The notes under the pieces are model-generated. The model saw only the letters and a program-made list of their open reading frames with translations, was not told the DNA's origin and searched no databases. Shown one piece after another: positions 11,525-55,622 of a stretch of 64,000 nucleotides of DNA. The stretch spans positions 235,432 to 299,431 of the forward strand of contig NZ_JAKEDV010000003.1 of assembly GCF_021462505.1 (NCBI RefSeq), given 5' to 3'. How positions within the stretch are numbered: position 1 is the stretch's first letter; each line of letters opens with the position of its first letter. A program made the translations under genes and the position numbers. Origin of the DNA: Thermus brockianus (GTDB lineage Bacteria > Deinococcota > Deinococci > Deinococcales > Thermaceae).

Positions 11525-12363
11525 AACCGGTGGAGGTCGGGGTGGAAGCCCTTGCCCTAGAGCTACCCCCTTTGCCCGAGGAGGTCTTCCAGGACCTCTT
11601 GGCCTTTGGGGGGCTTAGCGAGGAGGCCAAGCGGGCCATGCGCCTGGATGCGGAGCGGCTTCTGGAGGGGGCTTCCCGTTTCGTGGCCGAGGTGTACGAG
11701 CGCCTAAGCCGCCACCCCGGCACGGCCCGGGCCCTGGGCTGGGAAGGGCGGGTGCCTGAGGAGGAGCTTTACCTTAGGCGGGCCTTCTTCGCCGCTTGGT
11801 TCGCCCGCACCCTGGGGGTGGACACCTCGGCGGAGTTCGCCCGGGAGGTCTACCGGGCTGGGCTTTGGCACGGGGGGTTAGGGCCCAAGGGGGCCTACAT
11901 CCCCCCGGAGTACGTGGGCCTTTCCTTCGCCCAGGTGGGGCGGTACGTGGCGGAAAGGGTGGGGGACGTGCGTCCTTGGCTCGTGTACCTCTCCGCCCAG
12001 GAGGAGGTGATGCGCAAAGGCTTTGACGCCGCCCTGGCGCTTCGGGAAGGGGAGGTTTCCGTTCGCTTCCAGGCCTTGGGCCTGGCCTATCCCGCCTTGC
12101 CCAAGCCCCTTTGCCTGCGGGCGGCGAACGTGGAGGAGGCCCTCTGCAAGGTGTATGCCGCCTTCCCCGCCCTGAGGGACGTCTCCCTGGAGCCCCTCTT
12201 CGCCGAGGAGGCGGTGGGCCTTTGGCTGGAGCCCAAGACCCTTTGGCGCCTTCGTCCCCGCTTCGCCGTGCTCCTAAACGGCCGGGATGTCCGCTACCTC
12301 CAGGGCCTCGCCACCCCCTTGGCCGAGGGGGATACCCTAACCCTCCTGCCTCCTGGGCGCTAG
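11521..12363 (+). CDS. Protoglobin domain fused to MoaD-like (ubiquitin-fold) domain
   Basis: 280 residues from GTG 11521, which overlaps the previous stop (GTGA). Residues 1-175 have the helical pattern of a protoglobin, a single-domain globin that binds O2, CO or NO; a candidate proximal His is about residue 117 in GLWHGGLGPKGAY. Residues 178-280 follow the MoaD/ThiS pattern (VSVRFQALGLAYPALP, AVLLNGRDVRYLQG, ATPLAEGDTLTLLPPG) but end in Gly-Arg without the Gly-Gly tail needed for thiocarboxylation. This is likely a gas sensor or NO-binding protein with a degenerate ubiquitin-like tail. Confidence 0.7.
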   Translation: MKPVEVGVEALALELPPLPEEVFQDLLAFGGLSEEAKRAMRLDAERLLEGASRFVAEVYERLSRHPGTARALGWEGRVPEEELYLRRAFFAAWFARTLGVDTSAEFAREVYRAGLWHGGLGPKGAYIPPEYVGLSFAQVGRYVAERVGDVRPWLVYLSAQEEVMRKGFDAALALREGEVSVRFQALGLAYPALPKPLCLRAANVEEALCKVYAAFPALRDVSLEPLFAEEAVGLWLEPKTLWRLRPRFAVLLNGRDVRYLQGLATPLAEGDTLTLLPPGR

Positions 12364-12365
12364 CC

Positions 12366-12382
12366 ATGACCTGGGTTATGGC
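12366..12382. promoter_or_regulatory. CRP/FNR-type palindrome (operator B)
   Basis: CCATGACC-TG-GGTTATGG is an inverted repeat matching in 7 of 8 positions per arm. The core TGACCTGGGTTATGGC agrees with operator A at 10015-10030 in 14 of 16 positions. Its centre is about 42 nt before the ATG at 12415, nearly the same spacing as operator A. Confidence 0.55.
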
Positions 12383-12414
12383 GAGGCCGACGTGGGCCCC
12401 CTGAGGATTAGGGC

Positions 12415-13566
12415 ATGGTGGCGACCGTCCACACCCGGGTCATCCCCTTGGCCGTTCCCGCCGGGTTCATCTTCCTGGGGGAAGCCTTTCTCCTTTGGGC
12501 GGCCTGGCTTTGGGTCCTCCACCCGGAGGCCTTCCTTGTGCCCCGGCACCCCGTGGGCCTGGCGGGGGCCCACCTGTACCTCCTGGGCTTTGGGGTGGGG
12601 GTGCTCCTTGGGGCCATGCACCAGCTTCTGCCGGTGGTGCTGGAAGCTCCCCTCTACCGCCCCGGCCTCGGCTACCCGGTGATGGCCCTTTGGGCCTTGG
12701 GGGTGGCCTTCTTGGCCCTGGGCTTTGCCCGGTGGCCGCTCCTCGTCCCCTTGGGCGGGGGGTTGGCCCTCTGTGCCCTCCTCCTCTTTGCCTACCACGC
12801 TTACCGGACCTTCCGCCTTGCCCCCCGCTGGAACCGGGTGGCCACCGCCCTCGCCTGGGTGGTCTTCTACCTGGTCCTAACCCCCCTCTTGGGCCTGGTC
12901 CAGGCCCTTTCCCTGCGCTTTGGCTTCTACGACCCCGAGCGCTTGGCCTGGCACCTCCTGGCTGGGCTCGGTGGGGTCTTCCTCCTTTCCATCCTGGGGG
13001 TGGGGTACAGGCTCCTTTCCATGTTTACCCTCACCCACGGGGTGGACGAGGGGGTCTTGGGGCTTCTCCTCTGGGTGGCCAACCTGGGGCTTGGGGGGCT
13101 GGCCCTGGGGGAGGGGCTGGGGTATGGGCTCCTCCTCCTCGCCTATGGCCTCGCCCTTTACGACACCTACCGCATCCTGCGCCACCGGGCGAAGCGCAGG
13201 CTGGACATCGGGGTGCGGCACTACCTGGGGGGGCTCTTGTTCCTGGGGCTAGCCCTATGGGCTCTTCCCGCAAGGCCGGTCTGGGCCGCTTGGTGGTTCG
13301 CCCTCGGGTTTGTAGGGCTCGTGGTGAGCGGGATGCTCTACAAAATCCTTCCCTTTTTGGTCTGGACCCACCGCTACGCTCCCAAGGCGGGGAAGGAGCG
13401 GGTGCCCCTCCTCAAGGACATGCTCGCCGAGGGGCTTGGGTACCTGGCGGGCGGGCTTTGGGGGCTTGGGGCCTTGGCCTTCCCCTTTTTCCCCTTGGCG
13501 GGGTGGGCCTTGGCCCTGGGGGTGGCGGTACACGCCTTCGCCCTTTGGGAGGTGATGCGGCGATGA
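12415..13566 (+). CDS. Polytopic membrane protein, cytochrome oxidase subunit I/NnrS-like
   Basis: 383 residues, about 11-12 membrane helices. Helices carry His in contexts that recall heme-copper oxidase subunit I ([42 protein letters not shown]), but the classic Cu-B HxxxY or NorB motifs are not evident. Such proteins accompany nitrate and NO genes in thermophiles. It has its own palindromic operator 42 nt upstream, so it may start a second transcript. Heme binding and catalysis are unproven. Confidence 0.6.
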
Positions 13567-13862: not shown

Positions 13863-16800
13863 GGGGTGGACTCCGGGTCTTCACCCGCCATAAGCCGGAG
13901 GAAGGCCTCCACCACCTCGGGGTCAAACTGCCTGCCCGCTTGTTCCTGCAAATAGGCCAGGGCCTTTTCCCGGGGCCAGGCCTTGCGGTAAGGGCGGTCG
14001 GAGGTCAGGGCGTCGTACACGTCCACCACGGCGAAGATGCGGGCGGCAAGGGGGATCTCCAGGCCCCTTAGCCCCCGGGGATACCCCGAGCCGTCCCAGC
14101 GCTCGTGGTGGGCGTAGGGGATCTCCAGGGCCTTTTTGAGGAAGGGGATGCCGGAAAGCCACTCGTAGGCGTAGACCGGGTGTTTCCGCATCACCTGCCA
14201 CTCCTCCTCCGTGAGGGGGCCTGGTTTCAGGAGAATGGCGTCGGGGATGGCGATCTTGCCCACATCGTGCAGGATGGCTCCCCGCCTCAGGGCGTCCAGG
14301 TCCTCCTCGGGCACCCCCAAGGCTTTGGCCAGGCGCAGGGTGAGCTCCGTGACCCGCTCCGTGTGGCCGGCGGTTTCTTGGTCGCGGAGCTCCACCGCCT
14401 TGGCCCAGCCCCAGAGGGTGAGGTCGTAGGCGGCTTCCAGCTCCTGCTGGCTCCGCTTTAGTTCTTGCAAGGTGAAGAGGTTGTCTAAGGCCAAGGCGCT
14501 TTGTCCCGCCAAGGTTTCCAAAAACTCCTCATCCTCTGGGGAAAGGTCCCAGGGCCTTCGGGTAAAGACGGCAAGGACGCCCAGGAGCTTGCCGCGGGCG
14601 AGTAGGGGATAAGCCCTTTCCGCTACCAGGCCTTCCTGCCTTGTGAAGTCCGGGTGGCTCCCTGGTTCTTTCGCTAGGTCTTCTACCGCCACCTTGCTTC
14701 CCGAAAGGGCCGCTTGTCCCACGTGCCCCTGCCCCACCAGGAGGCGTTTGGGCAGGAGCGCTCTGGGGCTGTGGAATCCGCGATGGGCGGCCAGTAGAAG
14801 GGCCTTCTCTTGGGGGTTATAGAGAAAGAAGGCGGCGGAATCCACGGGCAGGAGGAAAATTTTGTCCAGGATTACCTCAAGACTGGGGGCGATGTCCATG
14901 GAGGCCAAAATGACCTGATCCACGGTCCTTAGCGCTTCCAGCTGGGCCACCCTGCGCGTGAGCTTTTGCCTTAAGGAGGCGCGGCGCACGGCGTTGCCCA
15001 TGGCCTCGGCCACGAGCTGGGCCCGCTCCACCTCCGCCGGGGTGGGGGTGCGGGGGTGGGGCCAGGCGAGGGTTAGGGCGCCCACGGGTTCCGTGCCCGC
15101 CAGGATGGGCACCACCACCCCGCTAAAGCCCTCCGGCACCAGGGCCCTGGCCCCTGGCCGCACCCGGGGGTCGTTCTTCAGGTCCTGGCTCACCACCACC
15201 TCTCCCCGGAAGGCCCGGGCCACCAGGCCCTCCCCCGCAAGGGTGGGCGGCGTGGGGATGGCCTTAAGCCAGCCCCGGCTTGCCGCCTCCTCCAGGCGGC
15301 CTGTGTCCCGGTCGTAGAGGAGGATGCTCCCCACGGGGGCCTCCAGGACGGCCAAGGCGGCGTCCAGGGCGCTTTCCATCATCTCCTTGAGGTCCTCGCT
15401 CCGGCGCAGGGCGAGGCTTACCTGAGCGAAAGCCTCCAGGGCCAGCGCCTTCTCCTTGGCCTCGGTGATGTCCAGGCCCACGCCCAGGATGGCGGGCCTG
15501 CCCCGAATCTCCACCCGGGCGGCGGAGTAGTCCAGCCAGCGCACCTCGCCCCCTTTGGTCAGGATGCGGAAGGCGTAGCGTGCAGGGGGGGTTTCCCCCC
15601 TTAGGCGGGCCAGGCCCCGGCTTCGCACCATCTCCCGGTCGGCGTGGTGGACGAACTCCCAGATGGGCCGGGAGGCGAGCTCCTCTAGGGTATAGCCGGT
15701 GATCTCCGTGGCCATGGGGTTGGCGAAGGTGAGGCGGGCACTTCCCGGGTCCTCGAGGTCTTCCTGTTGCCAGAGGAGGATAAGGGCGGGGGCGGTTTCC
15801 GCCAGGGTGCGGAAAAGGGCCTCGGACTCGCGGAGGGCTTGTTCCTTGGCCTTCTCCTCGGTGACGTCCCGCTTGAAGGCGATGAACTGGGTTACCTGGC
15901 CTTCCTCCAGGACCGGGATGATGGTCATGTGTTCGGTGTAGAGCGTGCCGTCCTTGCGGCGGTTGATGAGCTCCCCTGCCCACACCTGGCCCGCCAGGAT
16001 GGTGGCCCACAGCTCTGCGTAGAACTCCCGGGGATGCAGGCCCGACTTGAGGATGCGGGGGTTTTGCCCCACGGCCTCCTCCGCGGCGTAGCCGGTGAGG
16101 TGGGTGAAGGCGGGGTTGACCGAGAGGATGCGCCCGTCCTTGTCCGTGAGGACCACGGCCTCGTGGGCGGCCTCGAGGGCCTTCTGCAGAAGCCTCTGGG
16201 TGGCCTCGGCTCTTAGCTTTTCCGTGATGTCCAGGGCCACCACTAGGACCGCCGGGCGGCCAGCGTACTCCAGGGTGTGGGAGTGGATTTCCACCTGGAT
16301 CTCCCGCCCGTCCTTGAGGCGGTGGGTCCAGGGGCCGGAAACCTGGTAGGCTTCCCTGGGTCGCTTGAGGTCTTCTAGAAGCCGGGGGCGCTCCCTTTCG
16401 GGGCGGATGTGCAGGATGGTCATGGAGAGGAACTCCTCCCGGGTGTAGCCGTACTTCCGCACCGCCGCCTCGTTCACCTCCAGGAAGCGGTAGGTTTCCT
16501 GGTCGTAGACCCACATGGGCAGGGGGTGGGACTGGAAGAGGAGGCGGAAGCGCTCCTCCTGGGCCACCTCCTGGCTCACGTCGTAGGTGTAGCCGGTGAG
16601 GAGGCGGGTGATGGGGTCAAAGACCAGGGTATCCCGAAGCCAGACCCAAGCCTGCTTTTTCCCGTGCCAGAAGCGGTAGGTGCAGACCTGCACCACCCCG
16701 GGCTCGGCCACCGCTTGGCGCACGGCGTCCATCAGGCGGGCCTGGTCCTCGGGGTGGACCTGGGTGAAGTAGAAGGCGGGGTCTTCCAAAAGCCTCTGGG

Positions 16801-49296: not shown

Positions 49297-49371
49297 GGGG
49301 CGGTAGCTCAGAGGGAGAGCACCCGCCTTGCAAGCGGGAGGTCAGGGGTTCAAATCCCCTCCGCTCCACCA
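49297..49371 (+). tRNA. tRNA-Ala (anticodon UGC)
   Basis: 75 nt including an encoded CCA. Acceptor GGGGCGG pairs with CCGCTCC (one G-U); the anticodon stem CCCGC/GCGGG encloses loop CTTGCAA with anticodon TGC at 49329-49331; the T loop is GGTTCAAATCC. The integrase gene ends 62 bp beyond its 3' end, so this tRNA is the probable attachment site of the downstream element. Confidence 0.97.
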
Positions 49372-49433: not shown

Positions 49434-50579
49434 CTACCCCTTGTCTTTGCCGAGGGGGTCGAGGTGGCGGAGGGTCTGTTTGAGGTCTTCTTCGGAGACG
49501 CGGGTGTAGTGTTGGAGGGCCACGGCGAGGCTTTTGTGGCCTGCGAGGGCGGCGGCGAGCTTAGGGTTTTTGGTTTCCCGGACGACGCGGGTGATGAAGG
49601 TGCCCCGGAGGTCGTGGAGGCGGGCGCGGGGTACTCCGGCTTTTTTGAGGACGCGGAGCCAGGTGCGCCGGAGGTTGCTGGGGTGGACGGGGTTACCCGT
49701 GGTGGAGGGGAAGACGAGGCCCTGTGGTTGGTACAGCTCTTCCAGGACCATGCGTTCCCTGTGGGCGAGGAGGACTTCTTTGGCCTCTTCGGTGAGGGGG
49801 AGGACGCGGTTGGAGCCGGAGGTCTTGGTGGGGCCGAGGATGGGCTGTCCGGTGCGGGTGTTGACGGTGAGGGCGCGCCGGATGTGGAGGAGGTCTTTTT
49901 CGAAGTCGATGTCGGACCAGAGGAGGCCGAGGACTTCTCCCCGGCGGAGGCCGTAGGCGGCGAGGAGGTAGAAAGCGGGGTAGAGGCGGTGGGTCTTGAG
50001 GACCTCGAGGACGCACCGGAGCTCTTCCTCGGAGATCTCGCGGCCCACTTCCCGTTGGGGGAAGCGGGGGAGGACGGTGCGGTCCACGGGGTTTTCGTGG
50101 AGGCGACCGTAGCGCACGGCCCGTTCCAGGGCGGCGTGGAGGAAGTTGCGGACGTGGGTCACGGTGGAGCGGCTGTACCCCTCCTGGGCGAGGGCGCGGA
50201 AGAGGGCTTCCAGGCGCTCTGGGGTGAGGTGGTCCAGACGGGGTGAGCCGAGGCGGTCCACCACGAGCCGGGTGTAGCGGGCGTATTCGTTGAGGGTGTT
50301 CTCCCGCCTCCCCTCCGCCCGGGCGGCCTCCGCGTGGGCTTCCAGCCACTCCAGGAGTCCGGGGGGTTCCTCGGGGTCAGCCCGGGTGAGGCCGTAGGCC
50401 AGGGCGAGCTTGCGGCGCAAAAGCTCCGCCTTCCGCGCGTTTTCCCGGCTCCTGGGACCCGGGGAGTAGAAGCTCTTCCGCTTCCCCCCCACGGTGAGGC
50501 GCACCTCGTAGACCCCCAGGTCCTCCCGGTAGCGCACAGAGCCCTCCCCTTTCCGGTTCCGCTTCGGCATCAGGGACAT
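49434..50579 (-). CDS. Tyrosine recombinase/integrase
   Basis: 381 residues. An N-terminal AP2-like arm-binding region (KGEGSVRYREDLGVYEVRL), a SAM-like core-binding domain (about 75-165) and a catalytic domain with Arg in YGLRRGEVLGL, HDLRGTFIT, GHKS and the nucleophile Tyr in ALQHYTRV. Its 3' end abuts tRNA-Ala, the usual place for the enzyme that integrates the element there. Start ATG 50579; an internal ATG three codons later is an alternative. Confidence 0.94.
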   Translation of the reverse strand: MSLMPKRNRKGEGSVRYREDLGVYEVRLTVGGKRKSFYSPGPRSRENARKAELLRRKLALAYGLTRADPEEPPGLLEWLEAHAEAARAEGRRENTLNEYARYTRLVVDRLGSPRLDHLTPERLEALFRALAQEGYSRSTVTHVRNFLHAALERAVRYGRLHENPVDRTVLPRFPQREVGREISEEELRCVLEVLKTHRLYPAFYLLAAYGLRRGEVLGLLWSDIDFEKDLLHIRRALTVNTRTGQPILGPTKTSGSNRVLPLTEEAKEVLLAHRERMVLEELYQPQGLVFPSTTGNPVHPSNLRRTWLRVLKKAGVPRARLHDLRGTFITRVVRETKNPKLAAALAGHKSLAVALQHYTRVSEEDLKQTLRHLDPLGKDKG

Positions 50580-51258: not shown

Positions 51259-51274
51259 GTGATCGGGGAAAAGT

Positions 51275-51297
51275 ACCGCATCCATCGCGGATGCGGT
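51275..51297. terminator. Hairpin after the repressor gene
   Basis: ACCGCATCC-ATCGC-GGATGCGGT, a perfect 9-bp stem. On the minus strand it follows the repressor stop and is followed by ACTTTTCC, a weak terminator T-run. The arm shares ACCGCA with the repeat array at 55396-55560. Confidence 0.6.
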
Positions 51298-51311
51298 GAA
51301 AAGCGGGGTGT

Positions 51312-52067
51312 TCAGGGTAGAGCCTTAAGTTTTTTAGAGGGGAACCCTTGGTGGAAGTTTCGGACCACGCTGATCACGGGTCCCCAGATCTTTGCGTCTT
51401 CGGGGAGAGGGATGTCTTCGTAGAGGGGGTTGACGCTTTCGAGGTAGAGTTGCTTGTTTCGTTCCGCGAGTTTTTTGACCACGATGCCGTCTCCCGGGAT
51501 GCCCACAGCCACGATAGCCCCGGTGAGGGGAGGGGTTTCCGTGTCCACGATGGCGTAGTCGCCTTCATAGAGGAGGGGTTCCATGGAGTTCCCGGTGATC
51601 TTTACCGCGAAGAGGGAGGTCTCCTTTTTGCCCTTCATCGGGGGCAACCAGAAGAGCATGAACTCTCTCGCGTCTTCGAAGGAGGGGGAGCCAGCTCCTC
51701 CCTCCACCACGGGGAGGCGGTAGGGGCGGACTTCGGTGGCGTCTTCGGGAGGTTCAGTTTTTTCTTTGTCGGTGTGTAGACTCCAGGCTTTGATCAGGTT
51801 GTCTATTTCCTCGTCCTTTAGTCCATAGGCTCGAAGAAGTTGAAGAAGGCGTTTTATGGGAACGCGCCTTATGTCTCTTTTTCCGGTTTCAATCATGGAA
51901 ACATAGGTTTGATTGATCCCTACCCGGTATCCGATGTCTCCTTGTGTGAGTTTGGCGCGTTCTCTTAGTGAGCGGAGGAACCGGCCAAACTCTCTTGGGG
52001 AATACTGAGCTACAAGTTTCCAGTCTACTTGATGTTCTTTGTTTTCGTCGTCCCAGGTCCAGCTCAT
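51312..52067 (-). CDS. S24-family (LexA/CI-like) repressor
   Basis: 251 residues. HTH_XRE domain at about 25-85 (RERAKLTQGDIGYRVGINQT) and a C-terminal S24 peptidase domain at about 130-245 with catalytic Ser in TGNSMEPLLYEGD and Lys in GIVVKKLAE. An Ala-Gly in VEGGAGSPS is a plausible self-cleavage site. It should hold the element silent and be inactivated by RecA filaments. A minus-strand promoter lies at 52089-52117. Confidence 0.88.
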   Translation of the reverse strand: MSWTWDDENKEHQVDWKLVAQYSPREFGRFLRSLRERAKLTQGDIGYRVGINQTYVSMIETGKRDIRRVPIKRLLQLLRAYGLKDEEIDNLIKAWSLHTDKEKTEPPEDATEVRPYRLPVVEGGAGSPSFEDAREFMLFWLPPMKGKKETSLFAVKITGNSMEPLLYEGDYAIVDTETPPLTGAIVAVGIPGDGIVVKKLAERNKQLYLESVNPLYEDIPLPEDAKIWGPVISVVRNFHQGFPSKKLKALP

Positions 52068-52191: not shown

Positions 52192-52210
52192 ATAACCAAG
52201 GGTGACGGTG

Positions 52211-52660
52211 ATGAGCCTTCGCGAACTCCGTCAGTTAGGTGGGTTGAGCATAGGAGAGCTGTCGAGGATCACGGGTTTATCTAGAAGCTACCTATGGAGA
52301 TTGGAGCGAGGGCAGCGTAAGTTGGGTGGGAAAGCGATATTGCTGCTCACAAAGGCTCTTTCTCGACACTTAGCTCTCCCGCAGGATGCGATTTTGACAA
52401 TGTTGATGGGAGAGAGTGCGACAACAGCGCTTTCCCAACGGACTGCTGTTGGTGGAGAGCCTGCTCCTCGTTACCTCACCGTAGACCAGGCGGCGCGCTA
52501 TCTCGGGGTTTCCCGTAGCTACATCAAAAACGCTGTTCGTTCTGGTCGGTTGCGCCCCCGTCCGGTTCCCGGTCCACGGGGTCAGATGGTTTTTTCCATA
52601 GAGGAGCTACAAAGTTTTGCTAAGCGGTACCTGGAGAGCGCGGAGGTGACGGCGGAATGA
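52211..52660 (+). CDS. Two-domain HTH regulator (XRE plus excisionase-type)
   Basis: 149 residues from ATG 52211 (GTG 52202 is an alternative). Residues 1-60 are an XRE helix-turn-helix (GLSIGELSRITGLSRSYLWR); residues 85-140 are an HTH_17 domain (LTVDQAARYLGVSRSYIKN). It faces the S24 repressor across a 143-bp control region, as a Cro-like antagonist or activator would, and is the first gene of the PrimPol operon. Confidence 0.82.
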   Translation: MSLRELRQLGGLSIGELSRITGLSRSYLWRLERGQRKLGGKAILLLTKALSRHLALPQDAILTMLMGESATTALSQRTAVGGEPAPRYLTVDQAARYLGVSRSYIKNAVRSGRLRPRPVPGPRGQMVFSIEELQSFAKRYLESAEVTAE

Positions 52661-52852: not shown

Positions 52853-53752
52853 GTGAGGTTCCCCAAAGCAGACAGTAACACACTTCTGGTCGTTTTGCAA
52901 CGGTATGTGCGGTTGGGTTACGCTGTCCTTCCTCTTCTTCCCGGAGAAAAGCGGCCCTATTTCCGTTTGGTTCCCCGTGGGTTCAAGGACGCTACTCAGG
53001 ATCCGGCTACCATCACGCGCTGGTGGCGGGCCTGCCCGGAGGCCGGAGTGGGGCTCCTGGCCCCCAAGGAGGTCTTGGTCCTTGACGTGGACCAGAGGGA
53101 GACCTGGGAAGAGCTACGCCGGGATTTCCCGGTTCTTGAGGCCGCCCCACGGCAAAAGACCCCAAAGGGAGGCCGCCACGTGTTTCTCCGGCTTCCTGAC
53201 GGGGTGCGGCTTTCCGCCAGCGTGCGGGTTTTGGAGGGGGTGGATCTCCGGGGCATGGGGCGGGCCTACGTGGTGGCCGCTCCTACCCAGCTGAAGGACG
53301 GGAGGGGCTACGCCTGGGAGGTGCCTCTGGTGCCCCCGGGTGAACTTCCTCTGGTGCCTGAAGACCTCCTTCTCCGGCTTCTTCCGCCGCCTCCCTCCAG
53401 GCCCGCTTGGACTCCGGTGGGGGGGGCTAGCCCTAAGCGGCTAAGGGGCCTCCTCGATACCTACGCCGACCGAGTAGCCCGCACCCCGGAGGGGCAGAGG
53501 CACAACACCCTCATCCGCTATGCCGTGGCCGCCGGGGGGCTCATCCCCCACGGCCTAGACCCCAGGGAGGCGGAGGAGGCCCTGGTGGGGGCGGCCCTCG
53601 AGGCCGGCCTCCCCGAGAAGGAGGCCCGGGCCGCCGTGGAGTGGGGCTTGGAGAAGGGGAAGGAAAGACCGCTGAATTTGCCGTCTCCTCGCTTGGTCCT
53701 GTCCATCAGAAGGCGTTTGAGAGAAGGAGGGAAGCGCCATGGACGAGCTTAG
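52853..53752 (+). CDS. Primase-polymerase (AEP superfamily PrimPol)
   Basis: 299 residues from GTG 52853, 6 nt after GAGGAGG. The archaeo-eukaryotic primase core (about 15-210) shows Asp78 and Asp80 in VLDVD, His109 in GGRHVFL and Asp131 in VDLRGMG, the expected metal and nucleotide ligands. A C-terminal helical PriCT-like domain follows (RYAVAAGGLIPHGLDPREAE). It closely resembles, from memory, the T. thermophilus HB27 PrimPol, which starts synthesis with dNTPs. It should prime replication of the element together with the ATPase encoded next, which it overlaps by 14 bp. Confidence 0.92.
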   Translation: MRFPKADSNTLLVVLQRYVRLGYAVLPLLPGEKRPYFRLVPRGFKDATQDPATITRWWRACPEAGVGLLAPKEVLVLDVDQRETWEELRRDFPVLEAAPRQKTPKGGRHVFLRLPDGVRLSASVRVLEGVDLRGMGRAYVVAAPTQLKDGRGYAWEVPLVPPGELPLVPEDLLLRLLPPPPSRPAWTPVGGASPKRLRGLLDTYADRVARTPEGQRHNTLIRYAVAAGGLIPHGLDPREAEEALVGAALEAGLPEKEARAAVEWGLEKGKERPLNLPSPRLVLSIRRRLREGGKRHGRA

Positions 53753-55622
53753 GGAGATCCTGAACAAGCTTTCTCCAGAGAACTGGGCGGAGCACAAGGT
53801 GGCGTTGTTTGACGCCATGGTGCTTGCGGGTTTAGACCCCGTGGAGGCCGAGGCGGTCCTCAGGGAAGCGGCCCAGAAGGTGAAGGTCACCTTGGAGGCC
53901 ATGCGGCAGGCTTGGCGGGATTTTCTTGGTCCGACCAAGCGGGAGGAAGCCGCCGCGAGAACCATCGTAGACCTGGTCCTGGAAGAAGTGGTGGAGCTTT
54001 GGCACACCCCGGTTGGGGAAGCCTGGGCTACCGTTCCACGAGACGGTCATGTGGAACACTACCCCGTGCGGGGGCGGGAGTTTCGCGCCTGGCTCGCGGG
54101 CCTCTACTACGCCAAGGAGGGGAAGCCCCTCTACGCCCAGGCCATGCAGGACGTTTTGGCCGTTCTGGAGGCCAAGGCCCTCTACGAGGGGCAGGAGCAC
54201 GAGGTGCACACGCGCTTGGCCGGGTGTGGAGGCAAGGTGTACCTGGACCTGAGCCGCCCGGACTGGAGCGTGGTGGAGATTTCCCCCGACGGTTGGCATG
54301 TCATCCCCGCTCACGAAGCTCCCGTGCGTTTCCGCCGGAGGCGATACCAGAAGCCGCTTCCCCTACCGAAACCCGGGGGAAGCCTTTCCCCCTTCCTCGA
54401 CCTCCTTCCTCTCCAGGAGCGTAGGGACGTGGTCCTGGTCTTGGGGTGGCTCGTGGGGGCGCTCTCTCCACGCGGACCGTATCCTATTCTGATCCTCTCT
54501 GGAGAAAAGGGAGCGGGGAAGAGCACCACGGCCAGGCTTCTGAAGGCCCTGGTAGACCCCCAGGAAGCTCCTCTTCGCGCCGAACCCAGAAATATCGAAG
54601 ACCTTATGGTGGCGGCGAAGGGGTCTTGGGTGGTGAGCTACGACAACCTGAGCAAGGTTCCAGAGTGGCTTTCGGATGCCCTCTGCCGCCTCTCCACGGG
54701 AGGTGGGTTGAGCAAGCGGGAGCTCTACACCAACGATGAGGAGTTCGTCCTCGAGGCTCAGCGCCCCGTGGTCCTCACGGGGATTGCCTTCGGAGCCATT
54801 CGGGACGACCTCGCGGACCGCTCCATGCTGGTCCACCTGACCCGTGTGGAGGAGGGAGAGCGCCGCCCCGAACGGGAACTCTGGGAGGCCTTCGAACGAA
54901 TCTACCCCGAAGCCCTGGGCGCTCTTCTGGATGCCGTTTCTATGGCTTTGAGACGGCGGGAGGAAGTGCGGACCGCCATGCCTTCATTGCCCCGCCTGGC
55001 CGACTGGGCCATCTGGGTGGAAGCCGCCGCCCCCGCGCTGGGACTCAAGGCCGGGGAGGCTGTGGAGGTTTTCTACGAGGTTCAGGCGGAGTTTGACCAG
55101 GACCTCCTGGATGCCGACCCGGTTGCCCGGGCCATCCTCCTGCTCACCGTGGACTGGCCGGAGGGGTACCAGGCCACCTACACGGCCTCGGAACTGCTCG
55201 CCGCCCTTGAAAGGGCCGTGGGGATCGAGGAAGCCAGGATAAAGCCCAGCGGGTGGCCTCGTACTCCCGCTGGGTTGGGTAGACACTTACCTCGGCTTCA
55301 GTCTGCGCTTCGGGGCGAGGGCATACGCCTCCAGGGAGAACGGGACCGTCACACGAAGAACCTCCGCTGGCGTTTAGAGAAGGTCAGGAAATCAACCACC
55401 GCAACCACCGCAACCACCGCAGACGATGTCCTGGACGAGATTTTCTTGTGCGGTGGATTGTCCTCCCAACCACCGCAAACCACCGCAACCACCGCAGAAC
55501 CACCGCAGGGGGAATTGCCCTCTGGAACGGGGTTTGCGGTGGATGCGGTGGTTGCGGTGGATGTGTACCCCCTTCTCTCTAGCGGAAAGGGGGAGGAGAT
55601 GGAAGAGGGGGAGTTGTTGTGA
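53739..55622 (+). CDS. Replicative-type P-loop ATPase/helicase partner of PrimPol
   Basis: 627 residues. N-terminal 190 residues are unassigned. The ATPase core has Walker A GEKGAGKST at about 255-263, a Walker B-like WVVSYDNLSKVP, and LADRSMLVHLTRVEEGERR, the arrangement of phage and plasmid helicases that partner PrimPols (VapE/DUF927-like). The last 80 residues have low-complexity TTATTATTA and VDAVVAVDV runs because the DNA holds an 11-copy repeat array. Likely the helicase that opens the element's origin. Confidence 0.8.
   Translation: MDELREILNKLSPENWAEHKVALFDAMVLAGLDPVEAEAVLREAAQKVKVTLEAMRQAWRDFLGPTKREEAAARTIVDLVLEEVVELWHTPVGEAWATVPRDGHVEHYPVRGREFRAWLAGLYYAKEGKPLYAQAMQDVLAVLEAKALYEGQEHEVHTRLAGCGGKVYLDLSRPDWSVVEISPDGWHVIPAHEAPVRFRRRRYQKPLPLPKPGGSLSPFLDLLPLQERRDVVLVLGWLVGALSPRGPYPILILSGEKGAGKSTTARLLKALVDPQEAPLRAEPRNIEDLMVAAKGSWVVSYDNLSKVPEWLSDALCRLSTGGGLSKRELYTNDEEFVLEAQRPVVLTGIAFGAIRDDLADRSMLVHLTRVEEGERRPERELWEAFERIYPEALGALLDAVSMALRRREEVRTAMPSLPRLADWAIWVEAAAPALGLKAGEAVEVFYEVQAEFDQDLLDADPVARAILLLTVDWPEGYQATYTASELLAALERAVGIEEARIKPSGWPRTPAGLGRHLPRLQSALRGEGIRLQGERDRHTKNLRWRLEKVRKSTTATTATTADDVLDEIFLCGGLSSQPPQTTATTAEPPQGELPSGTGFAVDAVVAVDVYPLLSSGKGEEMEEGELL
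55396..55560. repeat. Iteron-like array of CCACCGCA in both orientations
   Basis: Seven direct copies of CCACCGCA start at 55396, 55405, 55414, 55470, 55480, 55489 and 55500. Four inverted copies (TGCGGTGG) start at 55449, 55535, 55544 and 55553. Spacing is 9-11 bp within blocks. The two blocks can pair as a large stem. The array lies inside the ATPase gene and encodes Thr-Thr-Ala and Ala-Val-Asp repeats. Candidate origin or initiator-binding site of the element. Confidence 0.85.

Follow-up and report, generated by a model that had tools for sequence, protein, structure and literature searches.

In phage P4 (alpha/ori/crr), two repeat loci are bound by the primase-helicase, and in phage lambda the ori iterons sit inside gene O. 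In the SaPI and SCCmec elements, the C-terminal domain of the initiators Rep and Cch2 binds iterons lying downstream, at the 3′ end of the initiator's own gene (PMC7581432), and for the Streptomyces plasmid pFP11, the binding of RepA to its iterons in vitro is published, with repA and the iteron together forming the replication locus (PMC3583192). In T. thermophilus HB27, the circular form of ICETh2 rises on UV induction; this rise needed Hel and was reduced without it, Ppol was dispensable for it, and replication after excision was low, if any (PMC7693054); a replication origin of ICETh2-type elements is not described, and the word ‘iteron’ is absent, in the ICETh2 literature that we searched. 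Covarying initiator and origin are already known from the PLE satellites of V. cholerae, in which the DNA-binding domain of the RepA_N initiator covaries with the origin repeats, specificity swaps occur, and an origin-directed nuclease was proposed as the driver of initiator and origin change (PMC8263062).

Here, we followed up a repeat array found in a 64 kb window, positions 235432-299431 of G000:C18 (i.e., the whole stretch of Thermus DNA under analysis), where it lies within the final 230 nt of an ATPase gene (Table 1). Exact CCACCGCA matches bear out the seven direct and four inverted copies in 165 bp (55396-55560) given in the preliminary description, with starts at 55396, 55405, 55414, 55470, 55480, 55489 and 55500 on the + strand and at 55449, 55535, 55544 and 55553 on the − strand. 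The steps of 9-11 bp also reported there hold within the blocks but not over the whole array (9, 9, 35, 21, 10, 9, 11, 35, 9, 9), in which both 35-bp steps are constant spacers separating facing iteron copies, with 27 bp between the copies each time. Indeed, the reading frame runs intact across the repeats, as had been claimed, with the translation TTATTATTA ... AVDAVVAVD.

Table 1. Positions in the window of the array, its parts and the neighbouring genes
Feature	Position	Strand	Remarks
Iteron array, 7 direct and 4 inverted CCACCGCA (unit AACCACCGCA)	55393..55563		pattern >>> < >>>> <<<, in frame in the ATPase gene
Block 1, three direct iterons	55396..55421	+	9-bp steps
27-bp spacer between facing iterons	55422..55448		palindromic GTCCTGGAC (related Thermus elements: CTCCAGGACGGC)
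Single inverted iteron	55449..55456	-	
Block 2, four direct iterons	55470..55507	+	
Second 27-bp spacer between facing iterons	55508..55534		CTCTGGAACGG
Block 3, three inverted iterons	55535..55560	-	9-bp steps
Conserved box past the last inverted iteron, ACCCCCTTCTCTCTAGCGG	55567..55585	+	CCCCCTTCYTTCTAAA in other Thermus arrays; also beside non-coding arrays
ATPase gene, 627 aa, predicted initiator helicase (‘Hel’ of ICETh2-type elements)	53739..55622	+	D5/SaPI5-Rep-like SF3 helicase fold (model; PMC7693054)
ATPase C-terminal winged helix, aa 478-548	55170..55382	+	recognition helix 510-526, wing 529-548
Prim-Pol primase/polymerase gene, directly upstream of the ATPase	52853..53752	+	PF09250, E 2.9e-31
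HTH/excisionase-like regulator	52202..52660	+	
CI/LexA-like repressor (HTH + peptidase S24)	51312..52067	-	
Tyrosine integrase of the element	49434..50579	-	
tRNA-Ala(tgc), probable integration site	49297..49371	+	left end

We interpret this array as the iterons of an origin at which an integrative element would start its replication, written in frame at the 3′ end of the element's own initiator-helicase gene, and we give this reading a probability of about 0.84. As in iteron origins, the repeats are short, in regular phase, both direct and inverted, and they lie inside the gene of the predicted initiator, at the same place in most relatives. The candidate origin put forward in the preliminary description thus gains support from a conserved layout with a changing unit, from recurrence in non-coding DNA, from plasmid homologues and from covariation with a winged helix. 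Among the known systems, the pFP11/pFP1 theta plasmids resemble the locus in that pFP11 has a Prim-Pol gene and a homologous ATPase (35.5% over 72%; candidate RepA), and its iterons AGTGCGTCCCT fit the 10-bp register of the window array; a homologous ATPase beside Prim-Pol and iterons in the same register are therefore common to the window and the pFP11-type replicon. However, the pFP11 iterons are non-coding and lie ~ 0.5-0.8 kb after the gene, whereas the window array is in frame inside it. P4 and lambda involve other protein families, and the extra arrays of the window element (see below) lie 41-43 kb away.

Scans of genome and viral contigs provided 96 loci with a complete ATPase gene, spanning Deinococcota, Planctomycetes, Firmicutes, Chloroflexi, Nitrospira and several proteobacteria. 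A single 8-mer recurs four times or more at the ATPase 3′ end in 61 of these 96 relatives, and 13 of 1,788 control windows reach this number; in those 61 loci the 8-mer is the densest repeat of the entire locus, while 35 of the 96 have no detectable array at this end of the gene. The arrays mostly stop 30-80 nt ahead of the stop codon and are in frame in 57 of the 61 loci, lying mostly outside the gene in 4 chromosomal or viral-contig loci. The unit itself changes, with CCACCGCA, CCCCCGCA, TCTACCGCA, AATAGCCGC, AAATGTCACC, CGTCCGCA and others among the relatives, and Thermus and Meiothermus ATPase genes carry, at the same place, CCCCCGCA, AATAGCCGC, CCACCGCA, ATCTACCGCA, AATCTCCGGA or AAATGTCACC; units across the relatives nevertheless fit a single 10-bp register around ATCGTCCGCA (hand alignment). 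The protein tail varies with the unit (TTATTA, PATPAT, AANAAN and NVTANVT). Relatives keeping the Thr-Thr-Ala repeats with synonymous codons that break the DNA repeat, the pattern set against an origin in the preliminary description, were not seen; what persists among the relatives is the DNA array, while the protein varies. Note that the archaeal Methanothrix plasmid pH6Ac (L214 651-1000) encodes a 1,124-aa fused homologue and has unrelated repeats, AACTTTGC and GCTCGAAC, upstream of the gene.

The array also recurs in non-coding DNA. CCACCGCA forms three more arrays (G000:C18:331818-331921, 332004-332104 and 333047-333149), 41-43 kb from the one in the ATPase gene, and all three lie between genes with the same +++ 35 - 21 ++ spacing, one of them upstream of a beta-clamp operon; they are probably additional binding sites or a second origin. 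The plasmids pFP11, pSTS2, S. melanogenes and Chlorohelix also have arrays, of 9-12 copies, and here the repeats follow the homologous gene in the downstream DNA. In addition, the element of G005 has a second, non-coding array of its own unit with a CCCCCTTCTTTCTAAAA-type box on both flanks (L035 4540-4700). Near the three extra arrays, the locus L031 (G000:C18:318001-336280) encodes a DNA polymerase III beta-clamp-like and a Rad52-like protein (15614-16636 and 12099-12569), and several of its small genes are preceded by a GC-rich hairpin and, after it, a conserved AGACCAARAGGYGAAAG stretch (12048-12095, 13508-13555 and 15164-15210), a possible shared leader or terminator/RBS element.

As for the protein, the AlphaFold2 model of the ATPase (built from 46 sequences; pLDDT 92.7) places a C-terminal winged helix (H510-526 + wing 529-548) immediately before the array. 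Foldseek matched it to SaPI5 Rep 7ola (E 7.5e-9, TM(target) 0.52-0.56) and to other D5-type primase-helicases, namely MPXV E5, ASFV C962R and NrS-1, so that the model combines the D5/SF3 helicase fold and the C-terminal winged-helix domain of SaPI5/D5-type Rep. Pfam D5_N and Primase_Cterm were not recognised in the ATPase, which gave only weak AAA matches below cut-off; searches of NCBIfam and PHROG yielded no match and hence no curated family, and a PDB sequence search found no useful relative. Since no sequence family was matched, we consider that the ATPase ‘works like’ a SaPI5/D5-type Rep and do not count it as a member. The likeness to SaPI Rep and SCCmec Cch2 thus lies in a self-loading D5-type helicase of matching predicted fold, but their iterons are directly downstream and not in coding sequence, they have no Pfam-level sequence relation to the window ATPase, and the window-type units form one register common to many phyla.

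The repeat unit and the winged helix change together. Units were registered by hand, since de novo EM motif discovery drifted where loci are GC-rich, and automatically chosen 8-mers then served for a repeat of the test. When protein windows were compared with the unit in 54 non-redundant elements, with the ATPase-core distance regressed out (partial Mantel), covariation peaked at aa 521-545 (r 0.30, max-statistic P 0.001) for the hand-registered units, and the same segment was again the top window for the automated 8-mers (r 0.24, P 0.004); the permutation removes shared ancestry incompletely, but the localisation to one segment is independent of that. In this segment fall the last part of the recognition helix (510-526) and the greater part of the wing (529-548), and the strongest single columns include 536, 537, 538, 542 and 544 in the wing, plus several outside it. 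From these sequence comparisons, the array binder is likely the ATPase winged helix rather than PrimPol. PrimPol as binder gave no positive covariation, though this control was small (n=14), and the primase as reader of the array is made less likely by its exchange among elements, some of which have Prim-Pol ahead of the ATPase and others Toprim/zinc-finger proteins. For instance, in L072, L101, L150 and L035, a DUF7146/Toprim protein, in some cases also with a CHC2 zinc finger, replaces Prim-Pol upstream of the ATPase.

The covariation also bears on another explanation, namely that the array is an operator or RNA element without origin function, bound by the ATPase or a regulator for transcription control or folding in the mRNA to set stability or termination. 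The predicted mRNA fold of the array is strong (z = -7.2), and the intergenic position of the extra arrays, one of them ahead of the beta-clamp operon, would suit an operator. However, inverted repeats by themselves yield a strong fold, Rfam gave no family at gathering score (only miRNA-precursor matches, far below that score), and the array lies at the 3′ end of the gene and not at a promoter. Moreover, the switching of the unit follows the recognition-helix end and the wing, which points to binding of double-stranded DNA, and the homologous plasmid arrays are replication iterons; we therefore regard this explanation as unlikely.

The genes around the array suggest what kind of element would use such an origin. 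Prim-Pol followed by Hel/ATPase, a tyrosine integrase, an excisionase and a tRNA target are found as in ICETh2, which has the same module (PMC7693054), and the L058/G006 copy also lies at tRNA-Val. The window element differs from ICETh2 in its size, at least 51 kb, and in its conjugation, Rad52, UvrD and beta-clamp genes; indeed, the contig continues downstream with TraG/VirB4-like, VirD4-like, SLT, UvrD, Rad52 and beta-clamp genes, so that the element is large and ICE-like. A search for the right attachment site gave a match on C21 that is another tRNA-Ala gene, and the right end was thus not located. The hairpin near 51275, said in the preliminary description to share the core of the repeat, does exist (ACCGCATCC/GGATGCGGT, window 51270-51300) but has only a 6-base core in common; it lies just beyond the end of the S24 repressor gene, has a similar counterpart in L054 (see below), resembles a − strand terminator and is probably unrelated to the array.

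Plasmid centromeres, too, are marked by iteron-like direct repeats, and the VirB4- and VirD4-like proteins of the element could call for a transfer site, so that the array might serve partition (as a centromere) or conjugative transfer (as oriT) instead of replication. We hold this to be slightly less likely still, because relatives of ~ 7 kb without transfer genes retain the array, its link is to the helicase gene and not to par or relaxase genes, and the covarying protein is the helicase.

Selection on the encoded Thr-Thr-Ala and Ala-Val-Asp tail, with the DNA repeats as a by-product, would agree with the in-frame position of most arrays, but it is very improbable in view of the codons themselves. 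Elsewhere in the window, CCACCGCA occurs only 6 times, and thus 0.016 copies would be expected in the array stretch. Synonymous codon resampling (same protein, local usage, 20,000 trials) gave a mean of 0.23 and a maximum of 4 copies, never nearing 11, and the Ala codon GCA accounts for 5 of 8 within the array vs 3 of 158 elsewhere. Thus, neither chance nor the coding needs of this protein account for the array. In addition, the DNA layout remains constant where the tail has become PAT, AAN or VTN, the tail is absent altogether in the related Thermus ATPases L005-L007, and CCACCGCA also occurs in non-coding DNA. A near-identical copy of the module (95-96% protein identity) was found on the 15.3-kb contig L054 (JAOAEZ010000013.1, MAG Hydrogenophilus sp. 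SKW272), which is probably a Thermus contig misplaced in the MAG or a recent transfer. Between this copy and the window, 1 of 172 nt in the array is changed (small counts), with a divergence of 4.1% in the rest of the ATPase gene and 5.6% just upstream; the fourfold-site comparison, taken alone, was not significant (P 0.49). Equally improbable is the insertion of a REP-like or other mobile palindromic repeat, as the presence of four similar units of ~100 bp in a single genome might suggest, since all of them lie in one ICE-like stretch of one contig with no comparable array elsewhere in the 2.35-Mb genome, and the location at the ATPase 3′ end is common to many phyla with different units.

Returning to the proposed iteron origin, many arrays show CCC-N5-TTCTAA after the last inverted iteron, and [AT]TTCT occurs at +5 to +45 in 24 of 60 arrays vs 4.9% of controls. 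The box is not only a protein motif, since Thermus non-coding arrays carry it too; a 26-nt PWM of it had no significant match at the plasmid arrays. No clear AT-rich unwinding region was observed in Thermus, where AT is modestly enriched next to the arrays (+0.15 in one 10-nt bin), and the CCC-N5-TTCTAA box may be an opening or priming site. By analogy with SaPI Rep and SCCmec Cch2 (PMC7581432), the C-terminal winged helix of the D5-type ATPase would, after excision, bind each 9-10-bp iteron, with the variable bases read by the recognition helix and the tip of the wing, and the direct and inverted blocks would assemble facing ATPase oligomers around the 27-bp spacers. The DNA would then open next to the array, with the box as candidate site, the ATPase would load onto it as helicase, and the primase encoded next to the ATPase, which is Prim-Pol in the window and of the Toprim/zinc-finger type in other elements, would prime for the host polymerase.

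Altogether, we lean, by a little, towards a wider interpretation in which these loci represent a one-gene replicon cassette across many phyla: the origin would be written in the helicase gene, the repeat word and the DNA-reading wing would switch together and so make many mutually blind replication specificities, the primase would be exchangeable, and the distant Thermus arrays would be extra sites or origins. In such a cassette, initiator and origin would be hard to part by recombination because the origin lies inside the helicase gene. PLE satellites differ in that their RepA_N initiator is not a helicase, their origin is intergenic and only a few types exist. The array and the ATPase winged helix are therefore candidates for the precise origin and the binder of ICETh2-type elements, the source of the commercial Thermus PrimPol, and in dozens of elements they present a code-like pairing between the repeat word and the wing of the winged helix. 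This pairing could guide the search for origins in uncharacterised integrative elements and the construction of thermophile vectors, and it may help to study why mobile elements change their replication specificity, be it for compatibility or for escape from origin-directed attack as in PLE.
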